In this document: piece by piece, positions 264 to 7,070 of the stretch
Layout: each line of letters begins with the position of its first letter
Numbering within the stretch: position 1 is the stretch's first letter
Assembly: GCF_003426945.1 (NCBI RefSeq)
Contig: NZ_QURO01000004.1
Coordinates: 1,909,501 to 1,973,500, forward strand
Length of the DNA: 64,000 nucleotides
Direction of reading: 5' to 3'
DNA from: Thermus sediminis
Lineage (GTDB): Bacteria; Deinococcota; Deinococci; Deinococcales; Thermaceae
Notes under the pieces: generated by a model
What the model was told of the DNA's origin: nothing
What the model saw: the letters and a program-made list of their open reading frames with translations, nothing else
Database searches by the model: none
Made by a program: the position numbers and the translations under genes

Positions 264-412
264 CAGGACGCCCAAGACCTGGGGTGTCCTGGCCGCGGGG
301 CCAGGCCGACAGGCCTGGACGCCTCTGGCGGCGGGGGAAGTCCGGTGAGAGTCCGGCGCTGTCCCGCAACGGTAACCGGCCCCAGGCCGGAAGCCCGAGT
401 ACCCGCCTCGCG
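264..412 (+). ncRNA. Cobalamin (adenosylcobalamin) riboswitch
   Basis: The core matches the B12 element: a GGGGAAGTCCGGTGAGAGTCC segment at about 333-353, the near-invariant CTGTCCCGCAACGGTAA at 359-375, and a B12-box-like AAGCCCGAGTACCCGCC at 391-407. It precedes a thioesterase gene, nrdB/nrdA and cobS-cobO-cobB. B12 riboswitches normally repress B12 synthesis genes and B12-independent isoenzymes when the cofactor is plentiful. Both kinds of target occur here. The exact expression platform between 412 and 545 is not certain. Confidence 0.88.
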
Positions 413-497
413 GTCCTGCCCCGTAGCCCTCGAGGCAAGGGTGAAGGTGGTGATGCCTGTGGGACCTTAGGACCAAGCTTCCCCAACAAGCGGCGTT

Positions 498-512: not shown

Positions 513-550
513 GGCTTAGGAGAGGCGCTTTGCCCCTTAAGGAGGTTTGT

Positions 551-943
551 GTGCGGGAAACGCGCATGGTCTACCCCGTATTCCCTGGGGAGACCAACCA
601 CTACGGAACGCTCTTCGGCGGCACGGTCCTGGCCTGGATGGACCAGGCGGCCTTCGTGGCCGCTACCCGCCACGCCAAGAGGAAGGTGGTGACGGTGCAC
701 GCGGACGCAGTGGACTTCAAGCGCCCTGTCCCCCTAGGCTCCATCGTGGAGCTGGTGGCCCGGGTGGTGGGGGTGGGGCGCACCTCCATGCGGGTGGAGG
801 TGGAGATGTGGGTGGAGCCGGTCTCCGAGAGGGAGGCTTCCTATTTGGCGGCCAAGGGGGGTTTCGTCCTCGTAGCCCTGGACGAGGCGGGAAGACCTGC
901 CCCGGTGCCGCCCCTGGAGGTGGGGGATGCTCACGGAGCCTAG
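551..943 (+). CDS. Acyl-CoA thioesterase, hotdog fold (YciA/BACH type)
   Basis: A 130-residue single hotdog domain that probably hydrolyses acyl-CoA thioesters in the cytoplasm. Residues 16-34 (N-H-Y-G-T-L-F-G-G-x-V-L-A-W-M-D-x-A-A) match the YciA/BACH active-site segment, with Asn16 and Asp31 as the likely catalytic pair. GTG at 551 is chosen because AAGGAGG ends five bases upstream; a TTG at 530 would place that SD inside the gene. It is the first gene after the cobalamin riboswitch and overlaps nrdB by 17 bases, so it should be cotranscribed. Its link to nucleotide reduction or B12 is not obvious. The natural substrate is unknown. Confidence 0.85.
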   Translation: MRETRMVYPVFPGETNHYGTLFGGTVLAWMDQAAFVAATRHAKRKVVTVHADAVDFKRPVPLGSIVELVARVVGVGRTSMRVEVEMWVEPVSEREASYLAAKGGFVLVALDEAGRPAPVPPLEVGDAHGA

Positions 944-1898
944 GCGGGCCTACCGCCCTTACGAGTACCCGGGGCTTCTGCGCTTCCGGGACGCCATCCG
1001 CCACAGCTACTGGGTCCACACCGAGTTCAGCTACAGCGCCGATGTCCAGGACTACGCCCTCTCCGATCCCCCGGTGCGGGGCCTGGTGGAGCGCTCCCTC
1101 CTCGCCATCGCCCAGGTGGAGCTCTCTGTGAAGCTCTTCTGGGCCCGCCTGTACGAGCGCTTCCCCAAGCCCGAGGTGGCCGAGGTGGGCATGACCTTCG
1201 CCGAGAGCGAGGTGCGCCACGCCAACGCCTACGCCCACCTCTTGGACCTCCTGGGCCTGGGGGATCTGTTCAGCCGGTACCTGGAAGAGGCTCCTCCCCT
1301 AAGGGAACGGGCGGGGGCCCTGGAGGGGGTCCTGGCCCGTTCCAGGAACGCCTCCCTAGGGGAGTACGCCCTTTCCCTCCTCCTCTTCTCCGCCTTCGTG
1401 GAGCACATCTCCCTCTTCTCCCAGTTCTACGCCCTTATGGCCCTAAACCGCCGCGGCAACCGCTTCAAGGGCATCGCCAACGCGGTGGAGGCCACCAGCA
1501 AAGAGGAGAACATCCACGGGCTTTTCGGGGTAGAGCTCCTCCGCCTCCTCAAGGAGGAGCGGCCCGAGGTCTTCGGGGAGGGGTTTGCCGAGGAGGCCCT
1601 CCGGGCAGCAGAAGGGCTTTTTCGCGCCGAAGAGGCCCTTTTGGACTGGATCTTCGCCAGGGGGGATGTGCCTTGGGTTCGGGGGGAGGAGGTTTTGGAG
1701 TTCGTCAAGGACCGGTACAACCAGGTTCTGGCCCTCCACGGGCTTCCCCCGCCCTTCCGGGTGCGCCAGGACCTCCTGCGGGACGTGGAGTGGTTTGCCC
1801 TGGAACTTCTTTCGGACAAAGACGTGGACTTCTTCAACAAGCGCAGTGTGGCCTACGCCAGGAGGGTGAAGGCCTTTGATCCCGAAGAGCTCTTCTAG
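927..1898 (+). CDS. nrdB: Class I ribonucleotide reductase, beta (radical) subunit
   Basis: A 323-residue ferritin-like protein that houses the metal site and stable radical used by NrdA to reduce ribonucleotides. Ligand motifs are visible: Glu65, Glu95-x-x-His98, a later F-V-E-H helix and E-E-N-I-H-G. Tyr102 sits four residues after His98, exactly where the radical tyrosine of E. coli NrdB lies, so this reads as a tyrosyl-radical rather than a radical-tyrosine-free subtype. The ATG is preceded by GGAGGTGG and lies inside the end of the thioesterase gene. nrdA follows after nine bases. Assembly of this cofactor needs oxygen, unlike the cobalamin-dependent class II enzyme. Confidence 0.93.
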   Translation: MLTEPRRAYRPYEYPGLLRFRDAIRHSYWVHTEFSYSADVQDYALSDPPVRGLVERSLLAIAQVELSVKLFWARLYERFPKPEVAEVGMTFAESEVRHANAYAHLLDLLGLGDLFSRYLEEAPPLRERAGALEGVLARSRNASLGEYALSLLLFSAFVEHISLFSQFYALMALNRRGNRFKGIANAVEATSKEENIHGLFGVELLRLLKEERPEVFGEGFAEEALRAAEGLFRAEEALLDWIFARGDVPWVRGEEVLEFVKDRYNQVLALHGLPPPFRVRQDLLRDVEWFALELLSDKDVDFFNKRSVAYARRVKAFDPEELF

Positions 1899-1907
1899 GA
1901 GGAATCC

Positions 1908-3590
1908 ATGAAAGCTACCTTGCGCAAAGGGTACGAACCCTGGTACTGGGCCAACGAGCACACCCGGGTCTACATGGCCCGGGGTTACCTCCTCCCCGGG
2001 GTCACGGTGGAGGCCCGGGTGAAGGAGATCGGGGACCGGGCCGAGGCCCTCACGGGTATCCCTGGTTTCTCCGAGAAGTTCCAGAGGTACATGGCCCGGG
2101 GGTACTACTCCCTCTCCACCCCGGTCTGGGCCAACTACGGCCTCCGGCGGGGCCTTCCCATCTCCTGCTACGGGACCTACGTGGAGGACGACACCGCCTC
2201 CATCCTCCGGGCGGTGGCCGAGGTGGGGATGATGAGCAAGCAGGGGGGCGGGACCTCCGTCTACCTGGGGGCCCTGCGCCCCCGGGGGGCCCCCATCCGG
2301 GACAACGGGGAGAGCAACGGCTCCTACGCCTTCGCCGGCCTCTTTGACCGGGTCATCGAGGTCTTCAACCAGGGCTCCACCCGCAGGGGCCAGTGCGCCG
2401 CCTACCTGGACGTGGAGCACCCGGACCTGGAGGAGTGGTTCCGCATCCAGCGGGAGGGGAGCGAGGTCCAGTCCCTCTTCTGGGGGGTGTCCATCCCCGA
2501 CCGTTGGATGGAGGCCATGGTGGCGGGGGATGGGAGGAAGCGGGAGGTCTGGGCCAAGATCCTCAAGTCCCGCTTTGAGGCGGGGATCCCCTACCTCTTC
2601 TTCCGGGACGCCGCCCACCGGGGCATGCCCCAGGTCTTCCGGGAGCTAGGCCTGCGCATCTGGGCTAGCAACCTCTGCACGGAGATCATGCTCCCCTCCT
2701 CCCCCGAGGAGAGCTTTGTGTGCTGTCTTTCCTCCCTCAACCTCCTCCACTACGAGGAGTGGAAGGACACGGATGCGGTGGAGACCCTGGTGATCTTCCT
2801 GGACTCCGTCCTGGACGACTTCATAGAGAAGGCGGAGGGCATCCCCTACCTGGAGCGGGCGGTGCGCTTCGCCCGCCGCTACCGGGCCATCGGGCTTGGG
2901 GTCCTGGGGTGGTACAGCTACCTCCAGTCCCAGATGGTTCCCCTAGAGAGCCTCGAGGCCCACCTCCTCAACCTGGAGATCTTCAAGACCATCCGGGAGC
3001 GGGCGGAGGAGGCCTCCCGCTGGCTTAGGCGGCGCCACCCCGGGGACGAGCTCGCGGGGGTGGGGGAGCTTAAGGAAAGGCGGAACGCCACCCTCCTGGC
3101 CATCGCCCCCACCAAGTCCAGCTCCTTCATCCTGGGCCAGGTTTCCCCCTCCATTGAGCCCTTCACCAGCAACTACTACCTCAAGGACCTGCAGAAGGCC
3201 AAGGTGCCCTTCAAGAACCCCTTCCTGGAGGAGCTCCTCCGCCAGAAGGGCAAGGACGAGGAGCGGGTCTGGCGGAGCATCCTGGAGAGGAACGGGTCTG
3301 TGCAGCACCTGGACTTCCTGACGGACGAGGAGAAGGCGGTCTTCAAGACCTTCGCCGAGGTTTCCCAGCTGGAGCTCTTGCGCCAGGCGGCGGCCCGGCA
3401 GCGCTATATTGACCAGGGCCAGTCCCTGAACCTCCTCATCCACCCCGAGGCCCCCCTCAAGGACGTGAACCAGCTCTACCTGGAGGCCTGGCGCCTGGGC
3501 CTCAAGTCCCTCTACTACCAGTGGAGCCAGAGCGTGGCCCAGGCCTACAGCCGGGACCTCCTCCTGGGGTGCAGGGCCTGCGAGGGGTAG
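1908..3590 (+). CDS. nrdA: Class I ribonucleotide reductase, alpha (catalytic) subunit
   Basis: A compact 560-residue catalytic subunit that converts ribonucleotides to deoxyribonucleotides with NrdB. It has the substrate-reducing cysteine pair Cys87 (in S-C-Y-G-T) and Cys272/273, the Asn255-Leu-Cys257-Thr-Glu259 active-site triad, the Tyr536-Tyr537 radical-transfer pair near the C-terminus, and a terminal Cys555-x-x-Cys558 that should pass electrons from thioredoxin. No N-terminal ATP-cone is present, so activity regulation by dATP through that module is absent. The start follows AGGAGG. Class II enzymes need adenosylcobalamin; this one does not, which explains its place under a B12 riboswitch. 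Confidence 0.93.
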
Positions 3591-3599
3591 AATGGGGCC

Positions 3600-3677
3600 A
3601 TGGTCCTCGAGGTCCTGGGGAGCGGCAACTCCATGCTCATGGTGGCGGCAAGCGGCGCCGCCGTGCGCCTCAAGTAG
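3600..3677 (+). CDS. 25-residue mini-ORF with leaderless start signature
   Basis: A complete ATG-to-TAG ORF fills the 90-base gap between nrdA and cobS. It begins [11 protein letters not shown], contains a short apolar middle and ends in R-L-K. A TAGAAT hexamer (3588-3593) lies exactly six bases before the ATG, the spacing typical of leaderless transcripts. The stop is three bases before the cobS TTG. It may be a translated coupling peptide, or the surviving 5' end of a deleted gene (the opening resembles the first strand of metallo-beta-lactamase-fold proteins). I do not recognise it. Confidence 0.4.
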
Positions 3678-3680
3678 GCC

Positions 3681-4373
3681 TTGCGCCCCTTCCTCGCCGC
3701 CCTCGCCCTCCTCACCGCCTTTCCCGTGCCAGGGGCCTTCTCCCCGGAGGACCTGAGGCGGGGAGCGGCCCTCTTCCCCCTGGTGGGCTACCTCCTGGGG
3801 GGCCTCCTGGCCCTGGCCTCCCTCCTCCCCCTGCCCCCGGGGCTCCTCGGGGGGCTTCTCCTCGCCCTTTGGCTGGGCCTTACCGGCTTCCTCCACCTGG
3901 ATGGCCTCCTGGACACGGCGGATGCCCTCCTTGGGGCCAAGCCCAGGGAGAGGCGCCTCGCTATCCTGAAGGACCCCCACCTGGGGGCCTTTGCCTTTGG
4001 GGTGGGGGGGCTTTACCTCCTCCTCAAGTGGCAGGCCCTGGCCCTCTCCCCAGAGCCCCTTTTCCTCCTCCTGCTCCCGGGCTTTACCCGCTTCCTCGTC
4101 CTCCCCTTCCTCCGCCTCTACCCCCTGGCCCGGGAGGGGATGGCGGCCCTGGTGCAGGGCGGGCCCCTCCTTCCCCCCCTCCTCCTCGCCCTGCCCCTTC
4201 CCCTCCTCTTTCCCCTTCCCGCACTTCTGGCCTTCCTCGCCGCCTTCGCCGTGGCCCGGCTCGCCCTTTCCCGCCTTGGGGGGCTCACGGGGGACGTGCT
4301 GGGGGCCATGATCGCCCTATCCGAGCTCTTCGGCCTGTTAGGCTATGCCCTATGGAAAGCCCTAGGCGGGTGA
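3681..4373 (+). CDS. cobS: Adenosylcobinamide-GDP ribazoletransferase (cobalamin synthase)
   Basis: A 230-residue polytopic membrane protein that joins adenosylcobinamide-GDP to alpha-ribazole, the last joining step of cobalamin synthesis. Family features are the opening [16 protein letters not shown], the acidic metal-binding motif [13 protein letters not shown] near residues 71-83, and many leucine-rich membrane segments. The start is a TTG three bases after the mini-ORF stop. It overlaps cobO by 22 bases. cobU, cobT and cobC are not in the window, so nucleotide-loop assembly is only partly encoded here. Confidence 0.9.
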
Positions 4374-4915
4374 GGCCCTACGAAAGGCCCAAGGGGGAGA
4401 GGCGGGGCCTCGTCATCGTCTACACCGGGGACGGCAAGGGGAAGAGCACCGCCGCCTTCGGCCTGGCCCTAAGGGCCCACGGCCGGGGGCTAAGGGTGCG
4501 GGTCTTCCAGTTCCTCAAGCACCAGGGGGCCCGCTTTGGGGAGCACCGGGCCCTGGAAAGGCTCGGCATCCCCATAGAGGGCCTGGGGGACGGGTTTACC
4601 TGGAGGAGCCGGGACCTTTTGGCCTCGGCCCGCCTGGCCCAGGAGGGCTGGCAGAGGGCCAAGGAGGCCATCCTCTCCGGGGCCTACCACCTGGTGGTCC
4701 TGGACGAGGCCACCTATCCCCTGCGCTACGGTTGGGTTCCTCTGGACGAGGTCCTTTCCGCCCTGAGGGCCAAGCCCCCCCACGTCCACGTGGTCCTCAC
4801 GGGGAGGGGGGCCCCCGAGGCCCTTCTGGAGCTTGCGGACACGGTCACGGAGATGCGCAAGGTGAAGCACGCCTTTGACCTAGGGGTTCCCGCGCAAAGG
4901 GGCATTGAGCACTAG
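4352..4915 (+). CDS. cobO: Cob(I)alamin adenosyltransferase (CobO/CobA type)
   Basis: A 187-residue P-loop enzyme that transfers the adenosyl group of ATP to reduced corrinoids. The Walker A G-D-G-K-G-K-S-T spans residues 26-33, followed by the family block V-F-Q-F-L-K-H and the Walker-B-like [12 protein letters not shown] 4352 is used because it lies inside the 3' end of cobS and gives the normal family length; the frame stays open far upstream only because of base composition. Together with CobS and CobB it supplies the coenzyme sensed by the upstream riboswitch. Confidence 0.92.
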
Positions 4916-4918
4916 ACT
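4913..4918 (+). promoter_or_regulatory. Leaderless-type -10 element before the globin gene
   Basis: TAGACT lies six bases before the globin ATG at 4925, the spacing expected for a transcript beginning at the start codon. It overlaps the cobO stop codon. No clear -35 is visible, so this is at most an internal secondary promoter that would let the globin gene escape riboswitch control. Confidence 0.35.
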
Positions 4919-4924
4919 GGGGGT

Positions 4925-5524
4925 ATGACGGACAAGAACCTGGCCCGCTTCTACGCCATCGCCCAGGAGATCTGGAGCCAGCTTCCCCCTCAGGCCCGCT
5001 TCCGGCCCGTGGAGGACGGCAAGGTCCTGGCCCGGCACCGGGGCTTTCTGGAGGGCCTCACCGGGGAGCTGGTCCAGGGCTTTTACGAGACCCTCTTCGC
5101 CCACCCGCCCACCCGGGCCATCTTCCGGGAAGGGGAGAGACCCCTCCGGGAGAAGACCCTGAGGGACTGGTACCTCCGCACCTTGGCGGGGCCCTTCAAC
5201 GGCCAGTACTTCGCCTGGCAGGCCCTGGTAGGCCTGGTCCACGTGCGGCGGGGGGTGACCAACGCCATGATGGCGGGCATGTGGAACTGGCTCACGGAGG
5301 AGGTGGAAAGGAGGGCCCGCGAGGCCCTGTCCCGGGAAGAAGCCGAAGCCCTCGCTGGGGCCTGGCGGCGGCTGGCCTTCACCGTGGCCGCCCTGATCTC
5401 CGAGGAGTACCTGGACGCCTACCTCGAGGCCCTGGCCGAGGCCTTCGGCAGGGAGCCCAAGGAGTTTCGCCGCCTGGCCCAAGGGGAGGCGGAGCGCCTC
5501 CTAAGGGAGCTTAGCCCCCGGTGA
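4925..5524 (+). CDS. Protoglobin-family heme protein
   Basis: A 199-residue single-domain globin of the protoglobin/globin-coupled-sensor type. The recognition block is residues 101-119 (L-V-G-L-V-H-V-R-R-G-V-T-N-A-M-M-A-G-M), where His106 should be the proximal heme ligand; the preceding helices (F-L-E-G-L-T-G-E-L-V-Q-G-F-Y-E-T-L-F) also fit. There is no attached signalling domain, so it is more likely an O2, NO or redox-binding protein than a complete sensor. It sits between cobO and cobB, nine bases after cobO and overlapping cobB by four, which ties its expression to B12 synthesis. Its role there is not established. Confidence 0.82.
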   Translation: MTDKNLARFYAIAQEIWSQLPPQARFRPVEDGKVLARHRGFLEGLTGELVQGFYETLFAHPPTRAIFREGERPLREKTLRDWYLRTLAGPFNGQYFAWQALVGLVHVRRGVTNAMMAGMWNWLTEEVERRAREALSREEAEALAGAWRRLAFTVAALISEEYLDAYLEALAEAFGREPKEFRRLAQGEAERLLRELSPR

Positions 5525-6840
5525 ACCCGCCCCGCCTCCTCCTCGCCGCCCCCCACTCGGGAGCGGGGAAGACCACGGCGGCCTTGGCCCTCCTCCTCCG
5601 CCTCCGGGGGCTTGGCCTCAGGGTGCGCCCCTTCAAGGTGGGGCCGGACTACATAGACCCCACCCACCTGGAGCGGGCGGCGGGCCTCAGGCCCTACAAC
5701 CTGGACGGCTTCTTCCTGGACGAGGCGGGGCTCCTCGCCCTCTTTGCCCACGGGATGAGGGGGGCGGACCTAGCCCTCATAGAGGGGGTCATGGGCCTCT
5801 TTGACGGCAAGGACCCCCTGGGGCGGGTGGGCTCCACCGCCCAGGTGGCCCGGATCCTAGGGGCCCCGGTGGTCCTGGTGGTGGACGCCAAGGGCATGGC
5901 GGGCTCCATCGCCCCCCTGGCCCTGGGCTTCGCCCGCCATGACCCCGGGGTGCAGGTGGTGGGGGTGGTGGCCAACCGGGTGGGTTCCGAGCGGCACGCG
6001 GCGATTCTGAGGGAGGCCCTGGAGGCCCACGGCCTTCCCCTCCTGGGCTGGCTCCCCCAAGACCCCGCCCTGGAGCTTCCCGAGCGCCACCTGGGCCTGG
6101 TGCTGGCGGGGGAGGTGGAGCCTCCCCTAAGGGCCCTGGAGGGGGCGGGCTTTTGGGACCTCGAGGCCCTCCTCCGCCTGGCAAAGGCGGCCCCGCCCCT
6201 CCCCGAGCCCCCCTCCTTCCTTCCGGAAAGGCGCCCGCCCCGGGTGCGGGTGGCCTACGCCTGGGACCGGGCCTTTTCCTTCTACTACCCCGAGGCCCTG
6301 GAGCTCCTCTCGGCCTTGGGGGCCGAGCTCGTCCCCTTTAGCCCCCTGGCGGACGAGGCCCTCCCCGAGGCCCACGCCCTCCTCCTCGGGGGCGGCTACC
6401 CCGAGCTCTTCGCCGAGGGGCTTTCGGAGAACCAGGCCATGCGGGAGGCCATCCGGGGCTTCCGGGGGCCCATCCTCGCCGAGTGCGGCGGGTACATGTA
6501 CCTCTCCGAGGGGCTTTGGGTGGGGGAGCGCCTCTTCCCCATGGTGGGCCTGGCCCCAGGGGAGGCCCGCATGGGGGGGAAGCCCGTCCTCGGCTACCGG
6601 GAGGTGGAGGCCCTACGGGACAACCCCGTGGCGGCGAGGGGGGACCGCCTCAAGGGGCACGAGTTCCACTACGCCAGGCTTCCCGCCTCCCCAAGCCCCG
6701 CCTGGCGGCGGGTGGGGGGAGGGGAGGTGGAGGGGTGGACGGACGGCCGGGTCCTGGCCAGCTTCGTCCACCTCTATCTCCCCGCCAGGCCTGCCGCGGC
6801 CCAGAGGTTTTTGGCCCAAGCCGAGGTGCTGATAGGGTGA
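5521..6840 (+). CDS. cobB: Cobyrinic acid a,c-diamide synthase
   Basis: A 439-residue two-domain amidotransferase that amidates the a and c carboxylates of cobyrinic or hydrogenobyrinic acid using glutamine and ATP. The N-terminal ATPase domain opens with the P-loop-like A-P-H-S-G-A-G-K-T-T (about residues 9-18) and has the V-G-P-D-Y-I-D-P block. The C-terminal class I glutaminase domain has the L-L-L-G-G-G-Y-P-E motif and the nucleophile Cys322 in A-E-C-G-G-Y-M-Y-L. The GTG start overlaps the globin stop (GTGA). It is the last gene of the riboswitch operon; the TPP riboswitch follows. Confidence 0.92.
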   Translation: MNPPRLLLAAPHSGAGKTTAALALLLRLRGLGLRVRPFKVGPDYIDPTHLERAAGLRPYNLDGFFLDEAGLLALFAHGMRGADLALIEGVMGLFDGKDPLGRVGSTAQVARILGAPVVLVVDAKGMAGSIAPLALGFARHDPGVQVVGVVANRVGSERHAAILREALEAHGLPLLGWLPQDPALELPERHLGLVLAGEVEPPLRALEGAGFWDLEALLRLAKAAPPLPEPPSFLPERRPPRVRVAYAWDRAFSFYYPEALELLSALGAELVPFSPLADEALPEAHALLLGGGYPELFAEGLSENQAMREAIRGFRGPILAECGGYMYLSEGLWVGERLFPMVGLAPGEARMGGKPVLGYREVEALRDNPVAARGDRLKGHEFHYARLPASPSPAWRRVGGGEVEGWTDGRVLASFVHLYLPARPAAAQRFLAQAEVLIG

Positions 6841-6882
6841 TCCCTTTGTGGCCTAGCCCCCTCGTCTCCTCCGCGCTTCGGG

Positions 6883-6888
6883 TATAGT
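6883..6888 (+). promoter_or_regulatory. -10 element of the thi operon
   Basis: TATAGT lies about 10-15 bases before the first conserved bases of the TPP riboswitch, so it should set the start of the thi transcript. A matching -35 is not clear. Confidence 0.5.
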
Positions 6889-6895
6889 GGAGCCT

Positions 6896-6988
6896 GCAGG
6901 CTGGGGGTGCCCCAAGGGAGGGGCTGAGAGCTGGGTGGTCCCAGCAACCCTTGGAACCTGATCCGGGTAATGCCGGCGGAGGGAAGCC
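6896..6988 (+). ncRNA. TPP (thiamine pyrophosphate) riboswitch
   Basis: The THI element is easily recognised: GGGGTGCCC (6903-6911), GGGCTGAGAG (6921-6930), ACCCTTGGAACCTGATCCGG (6947-6966) and GTAATGCCGGCGGAGGGAA (6967-6985). It lies about 85 bases before thiE and should shut down the thi operon when TPP is abundant. The following segment to the thiE Shine-Dalgarno (GAGGAGGTGG) holds the expression platform. I see no strong U-tract terminator there, which hints at control of translation initiation. Confidence 0.95.
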
Positions 6989-7070
6989 TATGCGGAAGAC
7001 CCCAATCCCCCAAAACCCAACCCCCCTCGGGCCGCGTGGGCCTTTCCCGTCGGCCTGAGGAGGTGGAAGC

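Follow-up and report, generated by a model that had tools for sequence, protein, structure and literature searches.

The 64,000-nucleotide stretch of Thermus sediminis DNA analyzed here (hereafter, the window) carries, at positions 4925..5524 of the plus strand, an ATG-initiated gene encoding a 199-amino acid protein that is a new member of a known family, the protoglobins. We consider it probable that this is an autonomous, single-domain protoglobin with its own promoter that is most likely involved in O2 or NO handling and is linked to the cobalamin biosynthesis gene cobB in part of the genus. An earlier, sequence-only reading of this region had recognized a stand-alone protoglobin with a proximal histidine, His106, embedded in a B12-controlled operon, and had proposed several roles connected with that operon; the identification of the protein held, and the roles specific to B12 or to the ribonucleotide reductase found no support.

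The protein matches the Pfam Protoglobin profile (PF11563) over residues 30-167 with a score of 65.5 bits, compared to the curated cut-off of 25 bits (E = 7.2e-18); no NCBIfam profile matched it. Pfam detected neither a second domain nor a C-terminal transmitter, so that the protein is a single-domain globin and does not qualify as a globin-coupled sensor. Its sequence relatives in the PDB are Tlr1989 and the globin domains of AfGcHK and GsGCS. The search beyond the phylum comprised one scan of genome contigs with the window protein, which gave eight loci, all of them from Thermus, and PLSDB, which gave four Thermus plasmids per query. The structure was modeled with modest confidence (pLDDT 66.8, pTM 0.61) because only eight close sequences were usable for the alignment, namely, the window protein and those from seven of the eight scanned loci, with L038 excluded on account of an in-frame stop codon. 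Foldseek ranks Tlr1989 and the AfGcHK and GsGCS globin domains first for this model, with MaPgb next; the query-normalised TM-scores of 0.5-0.6 support the globin fold as such, not its details. Protoglobins have an N-terminal extension with a pre-A helix, and the model places a helix, predicted with low confidence, at residues 3-19. In the 10 pairs of Thermus orthologs for which dN/dS was computed, it is roughly 0.1-0.3, which indicates purifying selection and shows that the globin ORF is not a chance one.

In the alignment to the reference structures 5ohe and 2w31, His106 aligns with the proximal-His motif (F8) of AfGcHK and GsGCS, Tyr54 with the B10 tyrosine, and Leu79 falls in the E11 position, where GsGCS has a histidine. 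Tyr54 and His106 are invariant in 22/22 Thermus orthologs, in all six solo relatives from other genera, and in all 21 relatives linked to Roadblock genes, so that the proximal histidine and the distal tyrosine are present in 49/49 relatives over three groups. Together with Leu79 at E11, this invariance speaks for heme and for an open distal site, and the window protoglobin is predicted, on the strength of its sequence, to bind heme and a diatomic gas. The suggestion that the globin binds a corrinoid in place of heme, for which the position of the gene in the operon is the sole argument, finds no support in these data: the heme-ligand residues are invariant and are common to relatives encoded far from cob genes, and we give this version virtually no credence.

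The globin gene belongs to a series of genes on the plus strand, and its boundaries agree with those described previously. It starts 9 bases after the end of cobO (4352..4915; ATP:corrinoid adenosyltransferase, profile match), and its stop codon overlaps by 4 bases the GTG-initiated cobB (5521..6840; cobyrinate a,c-diamide synthase, profile match). Upstream of cobO lie cobS (3681..4373; Pfam match, with the NCBIfam score just below the cut-off), a C-terminal remnant of a ybjQ gene of the heavy-metal-binding family (3600..3677; 77.7% identity in blastn over 130 columns to the gene of the close relative G005), the genes for the alpha subunit (1908..3590; NrdE-prime, TIGR02510, profile match) and the small subunit R2 (927..1898; profile match) of a class I ribonucleotide reductase (RNR), a hotdog thioesterase gene (530..943; 4HBT, Pfam), the true start of which may be further downstream, and an AdoCbl riboswitch (309..452; 52.5 bits, gathering threshold 50). 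A TPP riboswitch is located 3' of cobB and is followed by what we take to be thi genes; no tRNA was found in the window.

Thus, the B12-controlled operon with an RNR described by the sequence-only reading is indeed there, with the riboswitch, R2, and NrdE-prime all upstream of the globin, but it is a local fusion. In the closest relatives, G005 and G016, the gene order is cobT-ybjQ-cobS-cobO-globin-cobB, and no riboswitch was detected in the 13-kb loci of these two genomes; furthermore, R2 was not detected anywhere in the G005 genome at the threshold used. The sequence that separates nrdE from cobS in the window continues to encode the last residues of YbjQ, the gene for which precedes cobS in G005, and cobT of the window genome is found elsewhere on this chromosome, about 21 kb ahead of the window. 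The ybjQ scar, the lack of a detectable R2 in G005, and the lack of a detectable riboswitch in the G005 and G016 loci indicate that a local rearrangement probably attached the riboswitch-RNR cassette to a cob operon that already existed, with the junction at the truncated ybjQ. The family name of this remnant was taken from the annotation in T. oshimai.

Across 27 Thermus genomes, including that of the window, the neighbors of the globin depend on the lineage. An ortholog with 71-87% identity is present in 22 genomes (the window protein and 21 others, counting G010, in which a TAG interrupts the frame at codon 19); none was found in G014, G017, G020, or G024, and G026 has only a fragment with two stops. 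In six of the 22, the order is cobO-globin-cobB (window, G002, G004, G005, G008, and G016); in five, the globin precedes cobB without an adjacent cobO (G003, G015, with 191 bp of upstream sequence only, G018, G022, and G023); and in eight (G007, G009-G013, G019, and G021), the globin is flanked by a divergent zinc-dehydrogenase gene and by a convergent gene that is presumably an ABC permease. The remaining three have other or incomplete contexts: in G025, the globin is beside the dehydrogenase gene and a carB-like gene; in G006, where the context is incomplete, the ABC permease gene is downstream; and in G001, nrdE is upstream and the contig ends inside the globin. A separate observation concerns a 501-amino acid gene that lies 5' of solo globins and in the vicinity of one module globin (L051, L053, L058, and L068); the L068 copy is an alkaline phosphatase according to Pfam.

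The sequence-only reading proposed a check of whether the cobO-globin-cobB order is conserved in related genomes; it mostly is not, but the linkage of the globin with cobB is real. The two genes are adjacent on the same strand, with a 4-bp overlap or a short gap, in 11/22 genomes that span two globin groups; this pairing is therefore non-random, and it may go back to the ancestor of Thermus. In T. oshimai JL-2, cobT, a heavy-metal-binding (ybjQ-type) gene, cobS, and cobO are followed by 2.4 kb with an opposite-strand gene and then by globin-cobB, and in G022, cobO is 5.7 kb upstream of the globin; these inserts suggest that the cobO-globin-cobB order was once wider. In a tree of 50 globins, a nine-member Thermus group (100/100) includes eight globins that adjoin cobB and a ninth that is truncated where its contig ends, and the branching among the window globin, those of G005 and G016, and the dehydrogenase-context group is not settled. 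As the tree does not root the Thermus globin groups either, the pattern fits one ancestral globin-cobB linkage followed by loss, or two gains.

Judged as a candidate cobalamin biosynthesis gene, the globin falls short both in co-occurrence (cobB is present in 27/27 genomes, partial in G020, vs 22/27 for the globin) and in position, being beside cobB in half of the genomes and between cobO and cobB in still fewer. A less direct connection would be that of an accessory protein that shields the RNR, or the corrinoid intermediates of CobB and CobO, from O2 or NO. The adjacency to cobB and the overlap in the window are in line with such a role, and in T. oshimai, an aerobe, a neighboring cob gene is annotated as cobalt-precorrin-5B methyltransferase, which catalyzes a step of the anaerobic cobalamin route. 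Nevertheless, cobB occurs without an intact globin in five of the 27 genomes, at least 10/22 globins have no cob gene nearby, and cob linkage was seen at none of the loci inspected outside Thermus; as for the RNR, R2 is encoded in 24/27 genomes but near the globin in only 5/22. We regard an accessory role of this kind as improbable, and the same observations speak against the earlier idea that the globin specifically protects cob(I)alamin. Our searches turned up no literature linking protoglobins to cobalamin, with the papers containing both words judged from their titles and the opening of their abstracts. Hardly probable, too, is the notion that a -10 hexamer, the protoglobin, and cobB form a functional unit in which the globin would shield or gate an oxygen-sensitive corrinoid route of an aerobic thermophile, with relocated globins serving in trans.

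The -10-like hexamer in question, TAGACT, had been noticed previously and is located at 4913..4918 (plus strand), 6 nt before the globin ATG. Its TAG doubles as the stop codon of cobO, which weakens the evidence from the window copy alone; across the orthologs, the motif persists in unrelated upstream contexts. TAnnnT is found 4-8 nt before the start codon in 22/22 orthologs, whatever their neighbors (16 at a spacer of 7 and 21 at 6-8; the G026 fragment was left out, and the start of L055 was set three bases upstream of the tblastn start, at an ATG), a count to be read with the caveats that the motif was spotted by eye before counting and that the orthologs are related rather than independent. 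In the controls, the motif occurs at 1.3% of random positions, before 2.9% of any ATGs, and in 5.8% of shuffles. The motif precedes five of the six solo globins from other genera vs none of the 21 Roadblock-linked paralogs, for some of which the start codons were chosen automatically and may be off. According to a 2025 report (PMC12340547), about 30% of ORFs in Deinococcota carry a -10 motif next to the ORF, and transcription in T. thermophilus goes up after such motifs; the globin genes, with TAnnnT directly before the ORF, conform in sequence to this leaderless class. A scan of positions 3400-7000 for promoters with a -35 element yielded no classical sigma-70 promoter, and the two terminator-like sites in this interval are no more than found in shuffled sequences. 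We infer, from the sequence pattern, that the globin has its own leaderless -10 promoter. Variable gene order combined with independent transcription from the TAGACT element was what the sequence-only reading itself named as evidence against an operon-based role, and this largely describes what we found, given that the order is mostly not conserved and the sequences before all orthologs point to a separate promoter.

The relatives of the window globin suggest a different alternative. In the globin tree, the solo globins of Thermaceae form one side (94/84) and the Roadblock-linked ones the opposite side, except for two from G071 that fall at the midpoint root. In the annotated loci of this sister clade (G073, L082, left out), the globins adjoin Roadblock genes, and Ras-like GTPase and DUF4388 genes are present in most; on Thermus plasmids and in other Thermales, the order is DUF4388 - Ras-like GTPase - Roadblock - protoglobin, or at least Roadblock-protoglobin. 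These operons apparently comprise a module that connects gas sensing to GTPase and c-di-GMP signaling, and given their Roadblock/GTPase/EAL setting, gas signaling is the best-documented setting among the relatives of the window protein. Accordingly, the window globin could be a stand-alone gas sensor that changes shape on binding O2 or NO and signals in trans to a separate partner, for example, a GTPase, a Roadblock protein, or an enzyme of c-di-GMP metabolism. The Thermus operons often include an EAL/GGDEF gene; a fused globin-Roadblock protein, HGbRL, is described in PMC4476040, and AfGcHK, a top fold match, is an O2-activated kinase according to PMC6211767. Yet the GTPase family of the module is present in just 6/22 globin-bearing Thermus genomes, no signaling gene was recognized beside any of the inspected solo loci, and the two clades differ at several positions, for example, Trp120, which is found in 28/28 solo proteins vs 1/21 module proteins. 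A sensor acting in trans is, in our assessment, possible but rather unlikely.

Several observations on these modules and on other protoglobins were made along the way. Module loci include L069 (contig C1 of the window genome), L065-L068, L076, L078-L081, L083, L086, L091, and L092; those of Thermus often end in a GGDEF/EAL gene that overlaps or abuts the globin, and the module of the T. brockianus plasmid pTB1 adds an HD-GYP gene. On C1 (20,308 bases), the module is present twice, about 10.16 kb apart, so that this contig probably represents a plasmid of about 10 kb that was doubled in the assembly. Two modules contain a third, diverged protoglobin (L067:6291-6884, minus strand; L068:6750-7343, plus strand) in which Ala and Tyr replace Tyr B10 and His F8 and which is probably heme-less. 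A further class of protoglobins is encoded about 3-4 kb from nirS (G001:C5:133970, G002:C6:58198, G003:C3:1363080, and G006:C57:11524), making it a candidate NO-related globin of a denitrification island, and longer ORFs of about 430-500 open codons, which include a protoglobin domain and lie no more than about 5 kb from narI (G022:C2:288129, G006:C57:30916, G009:C18:24242, and others), possibly encode a nitrate-respiration sensor. Distant protoglobin matches with 25-32% identity occur across Thermus, and the window genome encodes another protoglobin (L006:1393-1941; C4:1659917), about 25% identical, beside a dnaB-like gene.

The reading that we favor remains that of O2/NO handling by an independent protein. 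Because relatives keep the globin elsewhere with its own promoter, the gene most likely encodes a gas-binding protein that acts independently and does not belong to B12 synthesis, and the lack of a recognized signaling neighbor at the solo loci, along with the scarcity of the module GTPase, makes a partner-independent role preferable. For a stand-alone protoglobin with an intact set of heme ligands, O2/NO binding is the natural reading; this part of the earlier proposal of a globin acting for the radical enzyme stands, but a role specific to the RNR is not supported, with R2 so rarely nearby and undetected in G005. The protein would bind heme, with O2, NO, or CO as the diatomic ligand, and would function in the cytosol without a partner, O2/NO handling being its most likely role, and the hexamer right before the start codon would yield a leaderless globin mRNA. 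The globin and cobB would have become neighbors in part of Thermus, the globin promoter probably also feeding cobB by read-through, and in the window genome, the riboswitch-RNR cassette would have joined upstream later. No gene for an enzymatic partner or a reductase was found linked to the globin. A link to denitrification was considered as well and showed no clear association: NarI is encoded in 16/22 globin-bearing genomes vs 2/5 others and NirS in 14/22 vs 2/5, and the window genome has neither.

These findings call for caution in inferring function from the place of a gene in a Thermus operon, given that in this genus, a -10 hexamer in front of an ORF can turn a gene inside an operon into an independent unit. 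If the role is indeed O2/NO handling, a thermophile protoglobin with a broad set of orthologs is added to the family, of which a T. thermophilus member, YP_005074, has been on record since 2006 (PMC1457004). Of greater interest is a by-product of this analysis, the Roadblock-GTPase-protoglobin module: the combination of a protoglobin with a Roadblock protein, a Ras-like GTPase, and an EAL protein in Thermales would tie gas sensing to small-GTPase and c-di-GMP signaling.

Among the known systems, the window protein is comparable to the protoglobins MaPgb and Tlr1989 of Thermosynechococcus, which share with it PF11563, the single-domain architecture of about 195-200 amino acids, His F8, Tyr B10, and the globin fold; Tlr1989 is about 23% identical to the window protein in the Foldseek alignment, and MaPgb, judging by PDB titles, has Phe at E11, in place of Leu. 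The globin domains of AfGcHK and GsGCS are the top matches in fold and sequence, but the window protein lacks their transmitter domain, and where GsGCS, according to the title of the reference, is bis-His with E11 as a ligand, the window protein has Leu79. HGbRL of Methylacidiphilum combines a globin with a Roadblock domain, resembling in this respect the sister clade, whereas the window gene has no Roadblock neighbor; in a literature search on globin-Roadblock-GTPase operons, HGbRL was the only case listed. In its description (PMC4476040), in which the word protoglobin does not appear, the HGbRL globin clusters with HGbI and has no helix D but retains Tyr B10 and Gln E7. A further comparison is with the Roadblock/GTPase-linked protoglobins of Thermales, which are 38-51% identical to the window globin and have the same heme residues but, unlike it, sit in signaling operons and lack the -10-adjacent motif (21/21).
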